The translations under genes and the position numbers were made by a program. Positions 54,917-64,000 of a stretch of 64,000 bases of DNA are shown here, piece by piece (the stretch's first letter is position 1; every line of letters begins with the position of its first letter). The DNA is from Leifsonia shinshuensis (GTDB taxonomy: Bacteria > Actinomycetota > Actinomycetes > Actinomycetales > Microbacteriaceae), in the NCBI RefSeq assembly GCF_013410375.1, contig NZ_JACCFL010000001.1, positions 496,001 through 560,000 on the forward strand, written 5' to 3'. The notes beneath the pieces were generated by a model. The model had not been told where the DNA came from. It saw only the letters and a program-made list of their open reading frames with translations, and ran no database searches.

Positions 54917-55351
54917 TCAGTCGCCGGGCAGCACCGGCAGACGGTGCACGGCCTCGCGGAGCCGCTCGAGCCGTTGCGTCAGGTCGGCGGTCAGCGCCTC
55001 CGTCTCCGCGGTCGGGATCTTCCACCAGACCGCGTGGATCCGGGACCCGGTCGGCGTCGGCTCGACGAAGAACTCCAGCTCCGAGCCGGGGACGACGACG
55101 TGGGACGCCTGGACCGGGTCCCAGGAGATCAGCACGCGGCGGTTCGGGACGAGGTCCAGGATGCGACCGCTCGCCGTCTCGTCGTGGCGGGTGATCTCGT
55201 AGGCGCCTCCGCGCCGCGCCGCGACCTTCGCGCGGTCGGCGAACCACTGGGAGAGCAAGTACGGCGCCACCACCGCGTCGAAGGCGATCCGGGGCGGCCG
55301 GTCGAGCTCGACGCCGGCCCGGACTTCGAGCAGATACTCGTTGTACGTCAT
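54917..55351 (-). CDS. SRPBCC (AHSA1-like) protein
   Basis: 144 aa of the Aha1/START-like fold (PRIAFDAVVAPYLLSQWFADRAKVAARRGGAYEITRHDETASGRILDLVPNRRVLISWD). It overlaps the FAD/NAD(P)-binding gene by 4 bp (ATGA), so the two are co-translated. Ligand unknown; perhaps handles a hydrophobic intermediate of the nearby pathway, which is speculation. Confidence 0.82.
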   Translation of the reverse strand: MTYNEYLLEVRAGVELDRPPRIAFDAVVAPYLLSQWFADRAKVAARRGGAYEITRHDETASGRILDLVPNRRVLISWDPVQASHVVVPGSELEFFVEPTPTGSRIHAVWWKIPTAETEALTADLTQRLERLREAVHRLPVLPGD

Positions 55352-57285
55352 AGCGGTTCCCCCGTGAGTGCGAGCGTTCGTGGATCTCCGGCACGCTCGG
55401 CGCCGCGGTCCGTGACGTGCTCGATCCGCCGGATCACGGCGTGCGCCGTCCGGTCGTTCTCGCGGAACGAGAGCGCATTCGTGTTCGGCCGGGAGAACGC
55501 ACCGGCGAACGGCGCGTCCGTGAAGGGCCCGATCGCCCACCGCCGCGGGTGCGGCCGGCCGGCGGCGTCGATGACCCGTGCGTCCGCCGGATCGACGCGC
55601 AGCATCCCCTGGCGGAAGGAGCCGGCGCCCGAGACGGCGAGGTCGCGCAGTGCGCTGTTGTCGGTGCGGTCCGCGTGCGCCGGCGGGAGCCAGGCGTCGA
55701 TGAGAGCGTCCACGGCGACGGCGCCGCCGACCGACGGGCTGGAGACGACGAAGCGACCCCGCTGCTCGTCCGGCTCGACGCCGATGTCCGCGCCGGCGAA
55801 CTCGATGACGCCGGCCTCGGAGAGCGCGATGAGCTCGGCGATGCGATGCCCGGGCGGTCCGGAGGCCACGTAGCTGAAGTAGGCCGGCCACCAGCCGTGG
55901 AGGTCGCGGACCCTCGACTCCTCCGTCCAGGCGGGGGAGGCGCTGACGGGAGCGAGCGCGAACATCGTCAGCAGCAACGCGGTGAAGAGGCCGAGGCTGG
56001 CGCTGTGCTCGGGGGCGGTGCGCCGGTGGAGGTCGTCGGCGAGGTGGGCGCGGACCCACCGCTGCAGTTCGTCGCGATCCTCGAAGCGTGCCCCGGTCAG
56101 GGGGCGGTCGAAGAGCTCGAGGAGCAGATGGTCGGCGGGGTCCGGGATCGCGTCCGCCAGCAGCGACCGGTAGGCGGGCGAATGCGGATCGACCGTGTCG
56201 AGGTCGGCCCGGAACTCGGCCCAGGACCGGGACGTGCGCTCCGGGTGACCGGTGAAGAGTTCGCGGTAGTACCCGTGCAGCATCTCGCGCTCGACCAGCG
56301 GCCAGATGTCCCGGCGGAAGTCGAGAGAATCCGGGCTCGCCGTCAGCTGCGCGACAACGTCGGGGGTCAGATACCGCAGCGCAGGCGCCTCCCCGGTGAG
56401 GGTCGAGGAGATCTTCGACCGGTACGGGATCCCGCGCCGCGACCCGAGGAGGAGCTTCGGCTCGCGCCCGCTCGGAACGTACTCCAGTGAGTCGCCGCTG
56501 CGCCGGAAACGTCCGCCCCGGCCCTCGGTGAGCAGCACGATCAGGTCGATGGCCGCGAGCCCCATCCCGCGGACGGCGACGACATCCCCGGGCCCGAATG
56601 CGGTGAGGTCGGCGTCCGCGGTGAACGCGGGAGGCTGGTAGCTCAGACCGTGTCGGCGGGCGAAGCGGACGAGGCCGGCGGTCTCCCCGGCGGGCTCGCT
56701 TCCGGTGTGGCCGATGGCGTAGACGACGGCGTCGGCGGTGAGCTCGTCGCCGCCCGCCAGGCGGACGAGGTCGTGGTCGTCGGCCGACTCGACGGCGACG
56801 ACCGTGTCCGTGCGGCGCACGACGACGGCGCGGCCGTCGAGGTCCGCGATCGCACGGCGGAGGAACCAGTCCAGGTAGTGGGCGTGGAGGCGACGGGTCG
56901 GGAAGTCCCCGCGACGCAGCCGGGCGAGCTCGTCGGCGACCAGCGGGTCCACCTGCACGTCCTCGATCCGGCCGTCCCGCACGGCTTCGACCCACTCCAG
57001 CAGCGACGGCCCCGGCCGGACGGGTCCCTCGACCGAGCACGAGTCGTCGGTGAACATCGTGACGTCCTCGACCATCGAGTTCAGCTTGAGCAGGGGAGAC
57101 TGCTCGCGGCGCCAGATCCGGCCGGGCCCCGCCGGGAACGGATCGATCAGCTGCACCACGACCCGCGGTCGCTCGGCCGCGACGGAGCGTGCCGCCGCGA
57201 AACGCTCCAGCCAGCCGATGGCACGCGGGCCGGCGCCGATGACGACGACGGTGGCGTGCGCTGAGCGTTCGGAACGGGGGAGCAT
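55348..57285 (-). CDS. FAD/NAD(P)-binding protein, 645 aa
   Basis: Large flavoprotein of the NAD_binding_9 family. The N-terminal Rossmann signature is VVIGAGPRAIGWLERF (about 14-29). A second nucleotide-binding stretch, AVRGMGLAAIDLIVLLTEG, follows in the middle. The 200-residue C-terminal part has no recognised domain. A GGAGG site precedes the ATG. Divergent by 154 bp from the GNAT gene that opens the transporter/monooxygenase operon, and probably part of the same pathway as a flavin-dependent oxidase or reductase partner. Confidence 0.82.
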   Translation of the reverse strand: MLPRSERSAHATVVVIGAGPRAIGWLERFAAARSVAAERPRVVVQLIDPFPAGPGRIWRREQSPLLKLNSMVEDVTMFTDDSCSVEGPVRPGPSLLEWVEAVRDGRIEDVQVDPLVADELARLRRGDFPTRRLHAHYLDWFLRRAIADLDGRAVVVRRTDTVVAVESADDHDLVRLAGGDELTADAVVYAIGHTGSEPAGETAGLVRFARRHGLSYQPPAFTADADLTAFGPGDVVAVRGMGLAAIDLIVLLTEGRGGRFRRSGDSLEYVPSGREPKLLLGSRRGIPYRSKISSTLTGEAPALRYLTPDVVAQLTASPDSLDFRRDIWPLVEREMLHGYYRELFTGHPERTSRSWAEFRADLDTVDPHSPAYRSLLADAIPDPADHLLLELFDRPLTGARFEDRDELQRWVRAHLADDLHRRTAPEHSASLGLFTALLLTMFALAPVSASPAWTEESRVRDLHGWWPAYFSYVASGPPGHRIAELIALSEAGVIEFAGADIGVEPDEQRGRFVVSSPSVGGAVAVDALIDAWLPPAHADRTDNSALRDLAVSGAGSFRQGMLRVDPADARVIDAAGRPHPRRWAIGPFTDAPFAGAFSRPNTNALSFRENDRTAHAVIRRIEHVTDRGAERAGDPRTLALTGEPL

Positions 57286-57438
57286 CGGGTCACCCTGCCT
57301 CCGCCGACCACCCCGCCGCAAACGACCGTGACGGACTGTTTCGGCGCCCGACGCAATCCGTAACCGGGGTTGCCGCCCGTCGCGGAATGCCCCGTACGGT
57401 CGTCCGCAACATCCGCCCACACCCTGCGAAAAGGAGGC

Positions 57439-57951
57439 ATGGTGACTGTCACGAACGTCGACGCTGACGAGTTCCGCTATGTCCAGGCGACAGACGAGCT
57501 GGCCCGTCCGCTGCTGGCCGAGCTGGAGCTCGAGTACGACACCCGCTACGGCGACTTCTTCGGGGAGCGGGCCTCCACCGAACTGAACCGCTACCCCGCC
57601 GAGCTCTTCTCCGCTGCCCACGGAGGCGCATTCGTCCTGCTGCTGCGCGAAGGCGCGCCCATCGCCGGAGGGGCGTTCAAGCGCCTCGACCCGGAGACCG
57701 CGGAGCTCAAGCGCATCTGGACGAGCTCCGCCCACCGCCGCCAGGGCCTGGCCCGCCGGGTCGTCGAAGAGCTCGAAGCCGAGGCCGTGCGGCAGGGCTA
57801 CACGCGGATCTACCTAACGACCGGCCCCCGGCAGCCGGAGGCGAAGGCGTTGTACCTCGCCGCCGGCTACAGCCCGCTCTTCGACACCGCGCTCCCGGCC
57901 GAAGAGGTGGGAATCCACCCCTTCCAGAAGTTCGTGGGAGGTGCGCGATGA
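57439..57951 (+). CDS. GNAT-family N-acetyltransferase, first gene of the monooxygenase operon
   Basis: 170 aa. Acetyl-CoA motif [28 protein letters not shown], then [27 protein letters not shown] 57439 is only 1 nt from AGGAGG, so GTG 57442 may be the real start. It overlaps the permease gene (ATGA). By analogy with Bacillus SnaA/SnaB (YtmI/YxeL) it could acetylate an S-modified cysteine before oxidative cleavage; analogy only. Confidence 0.85.
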
Positions 57952-58931
57952 GCGCGGTCAGCACCGCGGTCGAGCGGACCGCCGTGGCCACTCCGGCCGC
58001 TACCAGCCCGCTGCCGGACGGCATCGATCTGCGCCGCCTCGCCGAGCGCCCGGTCCTCCCGCTGCGGCACCCGGGCCGGTGGATCGCGGCGGCCCTGGTG
58101 CTCGTGCTGCTGCTGAACTTCGGGCAGACGCTGTTCACGAACCCGTCGTGGGAGTGGGCGAAGGTGGGCAAGTGGCTGTTCAGCCCGGCCATCCTCACCG
58201 GGCTCCAGCTGACCCTGGCGGCGACGGCCATCTCGGCGGTCGTCTCCTTCGCGGGCGGCATCGTCGTGGCGCTCGGCCGGCTGTCGGCGAACCCGGTGCT
58301 CAGCTCGGTGAGCTGGCTGTACGTCTGGCTGTTCCGCTCCGTGCCGCTGATCCTCGTGCTGATCTTCCTCTACAACCTCGGCAACCTGTACCCGACGATC
58401 GGGGTCGGCATCCCCTTCGGGCCGCAGGTCGAGGTGAAGACGGTGTCCGTGCTGTCCGACCTCACGCTCGGCGTCATCGGACTGAGCCTGAGCGAGATCG
58501 CGTACAGCTCCGAGATCGTGCGGGCCGGCATCCTGTCGGTCGACCAGGGCCAGCACGAGGCGGCGAAGTCGCTCGGGCTCCCGCGCGGGCGGCAGTTCCG
58601 CCGGATCGTGCTGCCCCAGGCGCTCCGGTCGATCGTCCCGGCGTACGTGAACCAGATCATCGGCCTGCTGAAGGCGAGCTCGCTGCTGTTCTACGTGTCG
58701 CTGCTCGACCTGTTCGGCGTCGTCCAGAACCTCAGCAGCACCTACCCGACCGACATCATCCCGCTGCTCGTAGTCGCCACCATCTGGTACCTGGTGCTCA
58801 CCAGCGTCGTCTCGGTGATCCAGTACTACGTCGAGCGCTTCTACGCGCGCGGCGCGGTGCGGACCCTGCCGCCCACTCCGTTCCAGCGGCTGCGCGGCTG
58901 GGCGAACAACCGCCTGGACGGTGCGGCATGA
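57948..58931 (+). CDS. Polar amino acid ABC transporter permease
   Basis: 327 aa with a 45-residue cytoplasmic tail and about five to six membrane segments of the HisM/GlnP type. The family EAA motif is visible in [28 protein letters not shown]. Overlaps both neighbours by 4 bp (ATGA on each side). A single permease gene is present, so it would act as a homodimer. Confidence 0.92.
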
Positions 58932-59686
58932 GCGCCGGGATCGAGATCGCGAACGCGACCAAGTCCTTCGGCGACCGGCCGGTGCTCCGCGGGGTCGACC
59001 TGACGATCGAGGCCGGGACGGTCACCGTCATCCTCGGACCGTCCGGTTCGGGGAAGTCCACCCTGCTCCGCGCCATCAACCACCTCGAACCGCTCGATGA
59101 GGGCTACGTCGTCGTCGGCGACGAGCTGATCGGCGTCCGAGTGCACCACGGCCGGCTGAAGGAGCTCAGCGAGCGGGAGATCCTGCGCCAGCGGGCCCGC
59201 ATCGGGTTCGTCTTCCAGAACTTCAACCTGTTCCCGCACCTGACGATCCTCGAGAACGTGTCGGAGGCGCCGATCGCGCTGGGCACGCCTCCCGCGACCG
59301 CCCGTGAGCAGGCGCGCGCGCTGCTGGAGCGGGTCGGCCTGTCCGAGAAGGCGTCGGCGTACCCCCGGCAGCTCTCCGGAGGCCAGCAGCAGCGCGTCGC
59401 CATCGCCCGCGCTCTCGCCCTGGAGCCGGAGGTGCTGCTGTTCGACGAGCCGACCTCGGCTCTCGACCCCGAGCTGGTCGGCGACGTGCTGGGCGTCATC
59501 CGGTCCCTCGCCGGCAACGGCGTCACCCTCGTCGTGGTCACCCACGAGATCGGCTTCGCCCGTGAGGTCGCCGATCAGGTGGTGTTCCTCGACGAGGGCG
59601 TCATCGTCGAGCAGGGCCGCCCGTCCGACGTCCTCGACAACCCGCGCGAAGCGCGCACCCGAGAGTTCCTGAGCCGCGTGCTCTGA
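58928..59686 (+). CDS. Polar amino acid ABC transporter ATP-binding protein
   Basis: 252-aa ATPase of the GlnQ/TcyN type. Walker [10 protein letters not shown] at 37-45, Q-loop [11 protein letters not shown], signature LSGGQQQR, Walker [15 protein letters not shown] and switch His VTHEIGFA. It is coupled to the permease by ATGA overlap. Confidence 0.94.
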
Positions 59687-59718
59687 ACACCCCAACCCAT
59701 CCCCACCAAGGAGAAGCC

Positions 59719-60741
59719 ATGTCCCCCCACATCACCCCACCCAGACGCCGCCTCGGCGTCGCCGGGGCCGTCCTCGCGTCGGCCGCCCTCGTCGTCTCTC
59801 TCGCGGCCTGCTCCGGACAGGCGTCAGCCGAGAACGACGGATCCTCGAACGGCGGCGTCGCCATCGCCGCGCACACCAACGGCGTCGGCACCCCGACCAC
59901 CATCCAGGTGACCACGGTCGCGAAGATCGCCGATGAGCTGCCCGCCGCCGTGAAGTCCAGCGGAAAGCTCGTGATCGGCGTCGGCGCGCTGCCGGCGGGC
60001 TTCCCGCCCCTCGCCTTCACCGGCGACGACCAGAAGACGCTCACCGGCTCCGAGCCCGACCTCGGCCGTCTCGTCGCCGCCGTGCTCGGTCTGAAGCCCG
60101 AGGTGAAGAACGCGACCTGGGACAACCTCTTCGTCGGCATCGACACCGGCGCGACCGATGTCGGTTTCTCGAACATCACCGACACCGAGCAGCGCAAGGA
60201 GAAGTACGACTTCGCTTCGTACCGCAAGGACGAGCTCGCCTTCACCGTTCTGAAGAAGAACACGTGGGAGTTCAACGGCGACTACGAGAACCTGGCGGGC
60301 AAGACCATCGCCGTCAGCTCCGGCACCAACCAGGAGAAGATCCTGCTGGAGTGGAAGACGAAGCTCGAGGGCGAGGGCAAGACCCTCAACGTCAAGTACT
60401 ATCCCGACACGAACTCGACGATCCTGGCCCTGAACTCGGGCAAGATCGACGCCAGCTTCGGGCCGAACCCGGGCGCCGCGTACCAGAACACCCAGAGCGC
60501 GTCGTCGGCGAACCCGACCCGCACCGCCGGAACCTACTCCGGAGCCGGGGCGAGCCTCCAGGGACTGATCGCCGCGACCGTCAAGAAGGGCAGCGGCCTC
60601 GACAAGCCGATCGCCGACGCCATCAACTACCTGATCGACAACGGCCAGTACGCCAAGTGGCTGAAGGCGTACAACCTCACCAACGAGGGCCTGCCGAAGT
60701 CCGAGATCAACCCGCCCGGGCTCCCGATCAGCAACCAGTGA
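59719..60741 (+). CDS. Amino acid ABC transporter substrate-binding lipoprotein
   Basis: 340 aa. Lipobox LAAC near residue 30 and an SBP family 3 fold (KLVIGVGALPAGFPPLAFTGDDQKTLTGSEPDLGRLVAAVLG ... FVGIDTGATDVGFSNITDTEQRKEKYDF). AAGGAG site precedes the ATG. It differs from GlnH-type proteins in the usual Arg-binding region, fitting a modified amino acid rather than glutamine. Provides the substrate for the acetyltransferase and monooxygenases around it. Confidence 0.92.
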   Translation: MSPHITPPRRRLGVAGAVLASAALVVSLAACSGQASAENDGSSNGGVAIAAHTNGVGTPTTIQVTTVAKIADELPAAVKSSGKLVIGVGALPAGFPPLAFTGDDQKTLTGSEPDLGRLVAAVLGLKPEVKNATWDNLFVGIDTGATDVGFSNITDTEQRKEKYDFASYRKDELAFTVLKKNTWEFNGDYENLAGKTIAVSSGTNQEKILLEWKTKLEGEGKTLNVKYYPDTNSTILALNSGKIDASFGPNPGAAYQNTQSASSANPTRTAGTYSGAGASLQGLIAATVKKGSGLDKPIADAINYLIDNGQYAKWLKAYNLTNEGLPKSEINPPGLPISNQ

Positions 60742-60751
60742 GGTGACGACG

Positions 60752-61573
60752 ATGACCATCGCAGCAGACACCACGACAACCGCTTTCGAATCGGCGTGGA
60801 GCGCCTGGCATCAGGCCCACGAGGCCGACCGGGCTTCCGCGCACGGCTTCCTCGCCATCACCGCGCTGCACTGGCTGACGGCGGAGCCGACGGCCTACGA
60901 CGGCCTCCCCGGACGCTGGTGGAGCTCCGAAGACGGCCCGGTCGTGGAGCTCGGCGATGGTGAGACCCTCCTCGTCGACGGCGACACGGTCACCGGCCGT
61001 GTCGCCTTCGGCGCCATCCCGGAGCGTGGTGGTCGCGTCGCCGCGTTCGGCGACGTGGTGATCGAGATCGCGAAACGGGGCGGATCCGACCTGCTCCGGC
61101 CGCGGCATCCCGGTCATCCCACCCGCTCCGGGTACCACGGGACCCCGACCTACGCTCCGGATGCCGCGTGGGCGATCGAGGGCCGCTTCGTCCCGTTCGA
61201 CCAGCCGGTCGAGGTGACGGTCGGCTCGGTCGCCGAAGGCCTCCAGCACGTCTACGCCGCTCCCGGGGAGGTGGAGTTCTCGCGCGACGGCGGCGTGCAC
61301 CGGCTGACCGCCTTCAACGGGCACACCCCGGGGTCGCTGTTCATCCTCTTCACCGACGAGACCAGCGGTGTCACCACCTACCCGGCCAACCGGTCGCTGG
61401 CCGTCGCCGCTCCCGGTGATGACGGATCGGTCGTCCTCGACTTCAACCGGGCGGTCAACCTCCCGTGCGCGTACACCGACTTCGCCACCTGCCCGCTGCC
61501 GCCCGCCGGCAACCGTCTGCCGTTCGCGGTGGAGGCCGGAGAGAAGATCCCGCACGAGCGGAGCGCCCGATGA
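60752..61573 (+). CDS. DUF1684 family protein
   Basis: 273 aa of the DUF1684 family. The conserved signature is present: FLAITALHWL near the N-terminus, DFNRAVNLPCAYTDFATCPLPPAGNRLPFAVEAGE at the C-terminus. The ATG at 60752 has a TGAGGTG site; a GTG at 60743 is possible. It overlaps the following monooxygenase by ATGA. Biochemical function not known; here it is locked inside a monooxygenase operon. Confidence 0.85.
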   Translation: MTIAADTTTTAFESAWSAWHQAHEADRASAHGFLAITALHWLTAEPTAYDGLPGRWWSSEDGPVVELGDGETLLVDGDTVTGRVAFGAIPERGGRVAAFGDVVIEIAKRGGSDLLRPRHPGHPTRSGYHGTPTYAPDAAWAIEGRFVPFDQPVEVTVGSVAEGLQHVYAAPGEVEFSRDGGVHRLTAFNGHTPGSLFILFTDETSGVTTYPANRSLAVAAPGDDGSVVLDFNRAVNLPCAYTDFATCPLPPAGNRLPFAVEAGEKIPHERSAR

Positions 61574-62661
61574 GCCGCCCGGAGCATCCCCTCGTCCTCG
61601 GCGTCGAGCTCGACGGCGACGGAGCGCACCCCGCCGCGTGGCGGGCGTCCTCGCACAGCCCGGCCGAGCTGCTCGGCGGCCGGGTGCACGCCGAGCGCGC
61701 GCAGGAGGCCGAGCGCGCCGGATTCGCCTTCGCGAGCTTCGCCGACTCGGCCCTGCCGCCGGCGGATCCCGACGGCATCTCCGCCCGGCTGGACGCGATC
61801 CAGCGGGCGGCGTTCGTCGCCCCACTGACCAGCGCGATCGGGTTGGTTCCGGAGGCGGGCACGGTCTACACGGAGCCGTTCCACGTCGCCACCCAGCTCG
61901 CTTCGCTCGACTTCGCGTCGCGCGGACGCGCCGGCTGGGTCGCGACCGCGGTGGACGACCCCGGGACGGCGGCGCTCTACGGGCGCGACGGGCAGCCGGG
62001 ACGGCCGCAGGATGCGGTGGAGGTCGCGCGTCGGCTCTGGGACTCGTGGGAGGACGACGCGGTGATCCGCGACGTGGCGACCGGCCGGTACCTCGACCGG
62101 GACCGTCTGCACCACATCCGCTTCACCGGCGACGACTACTCGATCGTGGGACCGTCGATCGTGCCGAGGCCGCCGCAGGGCGCCCTCCCGGTCTTCGGCG
62201 CGGCGGCCCTGGCCGGGACCGCCGAACTGGATGCGGCCCTCTTCGACGTGCGGCCGGGGAGCGCGGAGGAGGTGCTCGCGCGCGCGACCGACACCGCGGC
62301 GGCGGTCCGCTCGACGGCCGCGCTCGCGATCCTCGACCTCGAGTTCGCGCTCGACGCCGCCGGTCTTCCGGCAGGCGAGCGGGTGCACACCCTCGACGCC
62401 CGGACACCGTGGCCCGCACGCCGCGCGCGCTACACGGGAACCGCCGACGGGCTGATCGACCTGCTCGTCTCGCTCGCGCCCGTCGTCGACGGCGTCCGCC
62501 TCCACCCCGCCGTGCTCGACGTCGACCTCGCGGAGTTCGCGTTCGCCGTCGCGCCGCGGCTCCGCGACCGCATCCCGCTCGCCATCCCGCGCCCCGGCGA
62601 CACCCTGCGCGCGACGCTGGGCCTGCCCGCCGCCGTCAACCGCTACCAGGAGTCCGCATGA
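61570..62661 (+). CDS. LLM-class flavin-dependent oxidoreductase (divergent)
   Basis: 363 aa of the bacterial luciferase-like superfamily, diverged. Recognisable segments: PLVLGVELDGDGAHP at the N-terminus, GLVPEAGTVYTEPFHVATQLASLDFASRGRAGWVATAVDDP in the FMN-binding region. FMNH2-dependent oxygenase activity is the family function. It overlaps the DUF1684 gene and ends in ATGA with the next monooxygenase, so the two are tightly coupled. Confidence 0.85.
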   Translation: MSRPEHPLVLGVELDGDGAHPAAWRASSHSPAELLGGRVHAERAQEAERAGFAFASFADSALPPADPDGISARLDAIQRAAFVAPLTSAIGLVPEAGTVYTEPFHVATQLASLDFASRGRAGWVATAVDDPGTAALYGRDGQPGRPQDAVEVARRLWDSWEDDAVIRDVATGRYLDRDRLHHIRFTGDDYSIVGPSIVPRPPQGALPVFGAAALAGTAELDAALFDVRPGSAEEVLARATDTAAAVRSTAALAILDLEFALDAAGLPAGERVHTLDARTPWPARRARYTGTADGLIDLLVSLAPVVDGVRLHPAVLDVDLAEFAFAVAPRLRDRIPLAIPRPGDTLRATLGLPAAVNRYQESA

Positions 62662-64000
62662 CCGCACCGACCGTCCTCCGCTTCGGCGTCTTCTTCCAGG
62701 GCGTCAACTTCTCGACCGTGTGGACCGAGCCGGAGAGCGGCTCCCAGATCGACTTCGAGAGCTTCCGGCGCCTCGCGCAGACGGCCGAGCGCGGCCTGTT
62801 CTCGGCGTTCTTCCTCGGCGAGGGGCTGCGATTGCGTGAGCACCTCGGCCGCCTCCACCAGCTCGACGTGGCGGGACGGCCGGACGCGCAGACGCAGCTG
62901 GCGGCGCTCGCCGCCGTCACGTCCCGCATCGGACTGGTCGCGACGCAGAACACCACCTACAACGACCCGCTGGACCTCGCCCACCGGTTCGCCAGCCTCG
63001 ACCTGCTCTCCGGCGGCCGCGCCGCGTGGAACGTGGTGACGACGGACAACGCGTGGACGGGCGAGAACTTCCGGCGCGGCGGCTACCTCGACCACGCGGA
63101 CCGCTACCGGCACGCGGAGGCCGTCGTGGTCGCCGCCAAGGAGCTCTGGGCCGCCTGGGCCGCCGACATCGCGGACTCCCCGGACGCGGACGCGTGGAGC
63201 GCCGGGGCGCCGTCGCCGACGGTCGAGGTGGACACCGGGCACTACCGCGCGCGCGGGCGCAGCCGCCTCCCGCAGAGCCCGCAAGGGCGCCCGGTCCTGT
63301 TCCAGGCCGGCGACTCGGCCGAGGGCCGCGACTTCGCCGCCCGTCAGGCCGACGTCATCTTCTCGGCCCACAGCGCGTTCGACGACGCGCAGAGCTTCGC
63401 GGCGGACATCCGGCAGCGCACCCTGAAGGCCGGGCGCCCGGCGGACGACGTGAAGATCTTCCCCGGGCAGGAGTTCATCCTCGCCGACACCGACGCGGAG
63501 GCCGAGGAGAAGGCGCGGTGGGTGCGCCGCAAGCAGGTCACCCCGCAGACCGCGATCGCCTTCATCGAGAACATCTGGGGCACCGACCTCAGCGGCTACG
63601 ACCCGGACGGCCCGCTGCCGGACATCGACCCGGTGCAGGACGTCACCGGCGAGACCCGCGGAGCGGGCTTCCGCGCGGCGCAGGCCAAGACCACGGCCGA
63701 CGCCTGGCGCGAGCGTGCGGAGGCGGAGGGCCTCTCCATCCGCGAGCTCGTCATCCGGCTCAACTCGGGCCGCGGTTTCGTCGGCAGCCCGTCGTCGGTG
63801 GCGGCGACCCTGCAGCGCTACGCCGACGCCGGGGTGGTCGACGGCTTCAACATCACACCGTGGCTGGTGCCGTCCGGGATGGACGACATCGTCGACCGGC
63901 TCGTCCCGGAGCTGCAGGAACGCGGGATCTACCCGACGAGCTACGAGGGGAACACTCTGCGCGAGAACCTCGGGCTGCGTCCGCTCGACTCCGCGGCGCT
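62658..64000 (+). CDS. NtaA/SnaA/DszA-family FMN-dependent monooxygenase (3' end outside window)
   Basis: First 447 codons of a monooxygenase of the nitrilotriacetate monooxygenase component A family. Visible family blocks: FGVFFQGVNFSTVWTEPESGSQIDFESF, AFFLGEGL, QNTTYNDPLDLAHRFASLDLLSGGRAAWNVVTT and RPVLFQAGDSAEGRDFAARQADVIFS. AGGAG site before the ATG. Family members include nitrilotriacetate, sulfur-heterocycle (DszA) and S-modified cysteine (YxeK/YtnJ) oxygenases. The gene runs off the right edge; the rest of the operon lies beyond. Confidence 0.92.
   Translation, partial: MTAPTVLRFGVFFQGVNFSTVWTEPESGSQIDFESFRRLAQTAERGLFSAFFLGEGLRLREHLGRLHQLDVAGRPDAQTQLAALAAVTSRIGLVATQNTTYNDPLDLAHRFASLDLLSGGRAAWNVVTTDNAWTGENFRRGGYLDHADRYRHAEAVVVAAKELWAAWAADIADSPDADAWSAGAPSPTVEVDTGHYRARGRSRLPQSPQGRPVLFQAGDSAEGRDFAARQADVIFSAHSAFDDAQSFAADIRQRTLKAGRPADDVKIFPGQEFILADTDAEAEEKARWVRRKQVTPQTAIAFIENIWGTDLSGYDPDGPLPDIDPVQDVTGETRGAGFRAAQAKTTADAWRERAEAEGLSIRELVIRLNSGRGFVGSPSSVAATLQRYADAGVVDGFNITPWLVPSGMDDIVDRLVPELQERGIYPTSYEGNTLRENLGLRPLDSAA

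Follow-up and report, generated by a model that had tools for sequence, protein, structure and literature searches.

The closest gene logic for the system described here is that of the Bacillus cmo/ytm pathway (PMC11487621; PMC10863075), in which, as set out in the available part of PMC10863075, CmoO and CmoJ lead to a sulfenic acid that is then reduced and deacetylated. The N-acetylcysteine (NAC) deacetylases named in the available part of PMC12757645 are ScmP, YhaA, and YtnL. We have analyzed a 64,000-nucleotide window of Leifsonia shinshuensis DNA (bases 496001–560000 of the 4.42-Mb single-contig genome), the end of which holds seven tightly packed plus-strand genes. In order, these encode a GNAT acetyltransferase (GNAT1), the permease, ATPase, and substrate-binding protein (SBP) of an ATP-binding cassette (ABC) importer, a DUF1684 protein, and two proteins of the luciferase-like monooxygenase (LLM) fold, LLM1 and NtaA; a divergent minus-strand pair encodes an SRPBCC protein and a flavin adenine dinucleotide (FAD)/NAD(P)-binding protein, hereafter the FAD protein. 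Gene calls and family profiles agree with the overlapping order given in an initial annotation of this DNA, with 4-nt overlaps at the GNAT/permease, permease/ATPase, DUF1684/LLM1, and LLM1/NtaA junctions and between SRPBCC and FAD. We consider it rather probable that the cluster would salvage organosulfur amino acids by an acetylate–oxidize–cleave–deacetylate scheme, like that of cmo/ytm with partly different parts. Our best guess for the substrate is an S-substituted cysteine, S-(2-succino)cysteine not being favored.

Results

Relatives of NtaA were found in 178 loci, the best 80 of which were gene-called (genes below 60 codons were left uncalled), and the NtaA gene was recognized in 79; the closest, in Leifsonia sp. 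TF02-11 and Leaf336, are 95–96% identical to the L. shinshuensis protein. An LLM1-type gene lies directly upstream of NtaA, on the same strand, in 71 of the 79 loci by gene calls, and it overlaps NtaA by 4 nt in 40 of these 71. Searches with tblastn place it there in five more: L018, where it is broken into frames, L025, L038, L042, where only residues 306–359 are matched, and L073, which has no NtaA in the gene calls and is counted through tblastn only. In L031, L043, L046, and L061 the contig begins within ∼250 bp of NtaA, leaving the upstream gene out of view. The adjacency is therefore not a matter of chance, as it is seen in 76/76 loci (of 80) that have sequence upstream of NtaA.

The two adjacent proteins differ sharply at the flavin site. 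We aligned 87 NtaA/NtaA2 sequences (of 90) and 70 LLM1/LLM5 sequences (of 77), chosen by length, with 10 paralogues and references, NtaA2 and LLM5 being a second copy of the pair located beyond the window. Eight marker residues were scored in YtnJ numbering (N124, T127, H145, R148, Y149, G218, S220, and G223). The L. shinshuensis NtaA retains 8/8 and its LLM1 0/8. Seven or eight markers are kept by 85 of the 87 NtaA/NtaA2 sequences and by 10/10 paralogues and references; the outliers, L024_11 and L025_09, are second copies with just 2/8. Among the 70 LLM1/LLM5 sequences, 46 keep none of the markers, 22 keep one, and 2 keep two. The L024 contig, labeled Sporosarcina, has a GC content of 67–70% and resembles Arthrobacter L025 in gene order, and it probably represents a mislabeled or contaminated genome.

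In BdsA, according to the available part of PMC5819316, His156, Arg159, Tyr160, Ser139, Val137, and Leu230 touch flavin mononucleotide (FMN), and mutants of five FMN-contact residues (not His156) reportedly lost activity completely. H145, R148, and Y149 of YtnJ would correspond to BdsA His156, Arg159, and Tyr160, BdsA itself lying outside our alignment. The predicted fold of LLM1 (predicted local distance difference test, pLDDT, 90.5) is an NtaA-type barrel with 3sdo, BdsA, and YtnJ as the best PDB matches. LLM1 is a degenerate NtaA relative that lacks FMN-contact residues and is kept beside NtaA. The initial annotation had counted two flavin monooxygenases here; we rejected LLM1 as the second on the loss of the FMN-contact residues, and it is probably a noncatalytic partner of NtaA. 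Because LLM1 lacks these residues yet lies directly upstream of NtaA wherever that position can be seen, the pair looks like a heteromer with one flavin-less subunit, which is the simplest reading.

The genes around NtaA point to sulfur. Within 11.5 kb of NtaA in the 79 loci, with one member per neighbor family profiled, relatives of the following are found: SBP in 41, permease in 40, LLM2 in 27, FAD in 23, GNAT1 in 23, DUF1684 in 20, rhodanese in 12, cystathionine-beta-synthase/cysteine-synthase type in 10, flavin reductase in 8, SsuE-like in 5, and SsuD in 4. In S. chartreusis (L173) the order LLM1-NtaA-x-DUF1684 is followed, after one opposite-strand gene, by O-acetylhomoserine sulfhydrylase and MetX. 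At 1.69 Mb of the L. shinshuensis genome (L113, 1685216–1692663), a paralogue of GNAT1 (59%) and an importer of the same type lie near an NtaA relative; this stretch also holds a cystathionine/cysteine-synthase-type gene and a histidine-ammonia-lyase-like gene. In other Leifsonia loci (L010–L012), genes intervene between SBP and LLM1, among them one for a NifU-type scaffold in L011 (PF01592) and, in L012, one for a class-V aminotransferase of the cysteine-desulfurase kind (PF00266). In Gordonia NB4-1Y, as reported in the available part of PMC7661421, expression of the nitrilotriacetate monooxygenases RS14730 and RS14155 is seen with organosulfur sources but not with MgSO4; that study also lists LLM genes with neighboring tags (RS14725; RS14160, RS14165) among those expressed, a likeness by name only. 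A monooxygenase likened to ours by family name only (NtaA/DmoA) is raised on dibenzothiophene in G. alkanivorans (PMC11852219, available part).

Since relatives of the cluster recur beside cystathionine-synthase-type, rhodanese, SsuD-like, SsuE-like, and homoserine-sulfhydrylase-type genes, a sulfur scavenging role is well supported. Gene content and these recurring neighbors thus bear out the sulfur role and the cmo/ytm-like layout that had been read from the window. The same neighbors would also suit desulfurization of a sulfonate, sulfone, or sulfoxide by SsuD/SfnG/DszA-like chemistry, with a substrate that is no cysteine conjugate and with GNAT and importer handling another amine-bearing organosulfur compound, for example a taurine-like one. 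SsuD and SsuE-like genes do occur near NtaA, SsuD-like LLMs accompany FAD and importer genes in L153 and L164, where NtaA is absent, and the family includes BdsA as a relative (199 bits). We nevertheless regard this as unlikely: the importer belongs to the polar amino-acid type, the GNAT and M20 genes point to an acylated amine, and CmoJ relatives are found in the Niallia and Paenibacillus clusters that share the Dpp/LLM2 module. In Niallia taxi (L170), an MsnO8-family LLM (334.6 bits) lies just upstream of glutaredoxin and CmoJ, and the locus continues with DppBCDF, SBP, an LLM2 relative (43%), GNAT (PF00583, 32 bits), and polar amino-acid permease/SBP genes (30%, 22%, and 28%). In Paenibacillus L171 this DppBCDF/LLM2-like module (46%) recurs, accompanied by an MsnO8 LLM (349 bits) and an amidohydrolase of TIGR01891 (387 bits).

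The FAD protein has a single PDB sequence match at E ≤0.01, the L-aspartate N-hydroxylase 8cp2 of Streptomyces sp. V2, which aligns to its residues 12–619. With residue roles taken from the available part of PMC10404684, the FAD/NADP catalytic residues are kept in the 24 sequences compared (R13 in 23/24, W51 in 24/24, N62 in 24/24, R577 in 23/24); R13 and R577, which also touch aspartate, are among those retained. The arginine cluster is altered, as evidenced by R266 to K in 24/24, R412 to L in 22/24, R416 to A or G in 19/24, and R276 to P in 15/24. All of the 8cp2 sulfate/aspartate-site residues R266, R276, R409, R412, N413, and R416 are replaced in the L. shinshuensis protein. Aspartate N-hydroxylation was rejected on the loss of this cluster, and the genome setting differs as well, being one of sulfur scavenging. 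Its sequence marks the FAD protein as related to aspartate N-hydroxylase but with a changed substrate pocket, and the protein recurs with the cluster: permease accompanies FAD in 19 and SBP in 21 of the 23 NtaA loci that have it.

Searching 248 genomes of the order at E ≤1e-60 returned the FAD protein in 42. Twenty neighborhoods were taken, of which 19 have the FAD gene (none in L161); several share contigs with the NtaA set (L157/L022, L166/L071, L168/L055, as judged by length), and the two sets are thus not independent. Importer genes are found in 12 of the 19, NtaA/LLM-pair genes in 11, DUF1684 in 6, SsuD-like genes without NtaA in 2 (L153 and L164), and a homoserine-sulfhydrylase-type gene in 6, of which that in L158, the only one profiled, is O-succinylhomoserine sulfhydrylase. 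The importer, SsuD-like, and sulfhydrylase-type neighbors tie the FAD protein to sulfur genes beyond NtaA. On its other side, FAD is next to GNAT1 in 9 and to SRPBCC in 3 of 20 visible loci, the latter all L. shinshuensis or close Leifsonia (L008 and L009); four more loci end too early. SRPBCC was dropped as a core part on this count and is probably not one. The suggestion of a distinct actinobacterial version therefore stands for DUF1684 and FAD, which recur as extra parts, and not for SRPBCC.

The Cx7C cysteines of the DUF1684 protein are conserved in 23/24 and 24/24 sequences, including three paralogues from the same genome. Its model (pLDDT 92.7) matches, in the C-terminal part, Halobacterium Q9HRE7 (4fj4/4dlh, the best in the PDB); 4fj4 has bound mercury, which may be a heavy-atom soak. 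With four copies in the L. shinshuensis genome, a member would be expected near NtaA in ∼2% of loci if other genomes are alike, compared with the 20/79 observed. Of 14 control genomes, 3 have the family, and Bacillus subtilis is not one of the 3. A DUF1684 paralogue heads a gene row with a Dpp-type importer (L118:8824-9576; genome 3395823–3396575, minus strand). For the Haloferax DUF1684 protein HVO_1043, a thiol relay through Cx7C has been proposed (PMC9426492, available part). The motif is common to both proteins, and ours has an extra N-terminal region and an organosulfur operon setting. The Niallia CmoJ cluster has a glutaredoxin gene (PF00462), presumably CmoI, immediately before CmoJ. 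No relative of this glutaredoxin was found at E ≤1e-3 among 1429 called genes from the 80 loci and our own, in which genes below 60 codons are uncalled. DUF1684 may thus stand in for glutaredoxin.

NtaA itself is 34.5% identical to YtnJ/CmoJ (239 bits) and 35.1% to 7e36 (237 bits), an enzyme of streptoseomycin biosynthesis; its other PDB relatives include 3sdo (named nitrilotriacetate monooxygenase, 222 bits), BdsA, and EmoA (142 bits). In a tree for which 28 NtaA-cluster rows were drawn at random from those eligible, NtaA and NtaA2 fall together in a single clade of 30 sampled actinobacterial rows (100/100). A separate clade (100/100) groups YtnJ with its relatives from Niallia and Paenibacillus, 3sdo, and one Pantoea protein; Pantoea_b, L110_10, and L112_05 are long branches. 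Further matches, all below 60% identity, lie on plasmids of Rhizobium (3), Paracoccus, and Agrobacterium. Since these are not placed in the tree, the clade may extend beyond Actinomycetota. The plasmid collection also includes Listeria records of 0.59 and 2.9 Mb that, judged by size, resemble chromosomal sequence filed as plasmids.

These relationships bear on two further explanations. The family name, with 3sdo and EmoA among the PDB relatives, would fit a nitrogen-compound pathway in which an aminopolycarboxylate or similar amine is oxidized by an NtaA/EmoA-like enzyme. We hold this to be quite improbable, as sulfur genes recur as neighbors and the match to EmoA falls short of that to CmoJ. 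A true S-(2-succino)cysteine pathway of the scm/yxe type, which the initial annotation had named specifically, is more improbable still. The kinds of genes do match YxeK, YxeL, YxeMNO, and YxeP (PMC9706529, available part). That source, however, takes close YxeK homologues as >50% identical, well above the 34.5% of NtaA to CmoJ, the comparison being made via CmoJ only. CmoJ is called a sequence homologue of YxeK (PMC10863075, available part), and the NtaA clade is far from CmoJ. No lyase-class-I or MmgE/PrpD-type match was found among the 19 profiled cluster and island proteins, and an aspartate ammonia-lyase/M20 pair sits elsewhere, at 3.27 Mb.

Organization of the Locus

The flank was fetched up to genome position 583900 for gene calling, and positions above 64000 are given in extended window coordinates. 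The initial annotation had pointed beyond position 64000 for an M20 amidohydrolase or a flavin reductase. Both are present within ∼17 kb, together with an MsnO8 LLM and a second NtaA/LLM pair.

Features of the cluster and of the downstream island in L. shinshuensis
Feature	Position	Strand	Match or remark
SRPBCC/AHSA1 protein	54917..55351	-	PF08327 43.5 bits
FAD/NAD(P)-binding protein, class B flavin monooxygenase, candidate S- or N-oxygenase	55348..57285	-	PF13454 116.6 bits; 8cp2 250 bits
Divergent promoter region, 153 bp	57286..57438	.	GCAATCCGTAAC at 57353-57364
GNAT acetyltransferase GNAT1	ATG 57439 or GTG 57442 ..57951	+	PF00583 59.9 bits
Polar amino-acid ABC permease	57948..58931	+	PF00528; TIGR01726 over cut-off
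Polar amino-acid ABC ATPase	58928..59686	+	Best NCBIfam profile TcyN (L-cystine) 312.5 bits, below cut-off 406
Family-3 substrate-binding protein (SBP)	59719..60741	+	PF00497; cystine-binding NF008426 83 bits, below cut-off, second to StpK7
DUF1684 protein, Cx7C motif, candidate dithiol reductant	60743..61573	+	PF07920 162 bits
LLM1, 363 aa, degenerate NtaA-family barrel	61570..62661	+	PF00296; TIGR03860 151.3 bits, below cut-off 279.7
NtaA-type FMN-dependent monooxygenase	62658..64019 (19 bp past window end)	+	TIGR03860 367.6 bits, over cut-off
GNAT2	64044-64574	-	
DppB, DppC, DppDF, SBP2, LLM2, LLM3	64801-72171	+	Dpp/SBP2 named from BLAST and by eye
LLM5, NtaA2, LLM4, M20a, ATP-grasp	78116-72156	-	Overlap at 3/4 junctions
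Rhodanese-domain gene	78274-78621	+	
M20b	78651-79985	-	
Flavin reductase	80174-80740	+	PF01613 114 bits

M20a (TIGR01891, 227 bits, over cut-off) lies ∼9 kb and the flavin reductase ∼16 kb downstream of the window edge, both in other operons. LLM4 belongs to the MsnO8 family (TIGR03558, 257.7 bits against a cut-off of 167), and in LLM5-NtaA2 the LLM1-NtaA pair is present a second time, the proteins being 40% and 49% identical. A RimK-like ATP-grasp gene (72156–73133, minus strand; L006:4160-5134) overlaps M20a, and the two genes come after LLM1-NtaA in Occultella L048 as well; an amide ligase paired with an amidohydrolase is a puzzling feature of a sulfur operon.

The element GCAATCCGTAAC in the divergent promoter region is a possible operator, and a similar stretch is also present in L008 and L012. 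As a shared motif it was set aside, since one 11-mer copy with one mismatch, at 64738 upstream of the Dpp operon, compares with ∼0.6 expected by chance, and we make no claim for it. A further region of the genome, L110 (993000–1012500), combines a Dpp-type importer, an LLM, two CmoJ-like genes, and an O-acetylhomoserine-sulfhydrylase-type gene, giving a second organosulfur-looking locus. By contrast, the 18-kb stretches that contain the NtaA relatives at 0.83, 1.55, and 3.79 Mb (L109, L111, and L112) lack relatives of FAD, GNAT1, permease, SBP, and DUF1684.

Discussion

In the scheme that we favor, the ABC importer would bring in an S-substituted cysteine-like amino acid and GNAT1 would acetylate its amine. 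The sulfur would be oxidized by the divergent FAD monooxygenase and/or a neighboring LLM (LLM4 or LLM2), and NtaA with the flavin-less LLM1, using FMNH2 from the flavin reductase, would break the C–S bond. The resulting sulfenic acid could be reduced by the DUF1684 Cx7C dithiol, after which M20a would take off the acetyl group to give cysteine. Mycothiol conjugate amidase (Mca) would yield NAC conjugates inside the cell. A mycothiol link was dropped when the genome search for Mca gave 24.2 bits against a cut-off of 277.15.

Several observations weigh against this salvage scheme or against its being uniform across genomes. NtaA is, by sequence and tree, not a CmoJ ortholog, it matches 7e36 as well as CmoJ, and no enzyme of its clade has, to our knowledge, an established substrate. 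For these reasons, another C–S substrate or a nitrogen compound is possible. At 1.00 Mb, L110_08 and L110_09 are NtaA-family proteins ∼41% identical to YtnJ, and these CmoJ-closer enzymes could be the ones that act on cysteine conjugates. It may also be that not every locus uses acetylation, because M20a is near NtaA in just 7/79 and GNAT1 in 23/79, and many Nocardia, Pseudonocardia, and Streptomyces loci have the LLM1-NtaA pair without an importer. The best PDB matches are YsnE for GNAT1 (38.9 bits) and Xaa-Arg dipeptidase and HmrA for M20a, the importer profiles favoring cystine all fall below their cut-offs, and an Rfam riboswitch search at the gathering threshold over L005, L006, L008, L010, and L016 returned one tRNA only.

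A broader proposal, which is possible though doubtful, is that LLM1-NtaA represents a widespread actinobacterial heteromeric C–S-cleaving monooxygenase of the NtaA/CmoJ branch in which a flavin-less subunit is obligate. It would be serviced by members of two families that had no assigned role before, namely, a DUF1684 Cx7C protein that reduces the sulfenic acid in place of glutaredoxin and an aspartate-N-hydroxylase-like FAD enzyme that performs S-oxygenation. If true, DUF1684 and the PF13454 FAD sub-branch would gain testable roles, some NtaA-family enzymes might work as heteromers in many Actinomycetota, and soil actinobacteria would have an additional route to regain sulfur from modified amino acids.

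Neither the LLM1-NtaA pair nor the whole cluster was found described in the literature searched, which covered few subscription journals. Paired LLM-fold subunits encoded by adjacent genes are known from LuxAB luciferase, in which one subunit lacks a working flavin site, and from the pristinamycin IIA synthase SnaA/SnaB. LLM1-NtaA is alike in its paired LLM-fold genes, but it belongs to the NtaA/CmoJ branch and its heteromer is presumed. With B. subtilis yxe/scm, compared via CmoJ and not YxeK, the cluster has the GNAT, ABC importer, NtaA-family monooxygenase, and M20 deacetylase logic in common, whereas the Leifsonia island adds LLM1, DUF1684, and FAD and has no lyase-class-I or MmgE/PrpD-type protein, YxeQ being, we take it, of the latter type.

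The likeness to Bacillus cmo/ytm goes further. By family only, both have an acetyltransferase, a polar amino-acid/cystine-type importer, and an NtaA-family monooxygenase in one operon, and the Leifsonia island likewise has an MsnO8-type LLM, an M20 amidohydrolase, and a flavin reductase nearby. LLM4, in the neighboring operon, has TIGR03558 in common with the LLMs of the CmoJ clusters L170 and L171, a family-level match, made through these clusters, that leaves LLM4 a possible CmoO counterpart. The Leifsonia parts, however, are spread over three operons. We would therefore file the cluster as one that works like the cmo/ytm pathway but is not a member of it, because it has a nonorthologous key enzyme of a separate clade, a flavin-less LLM1 partner, a DUF1684 Cx7C protein where no glutaredoxin was found, and an extra, divergent FAD monooxygenase.

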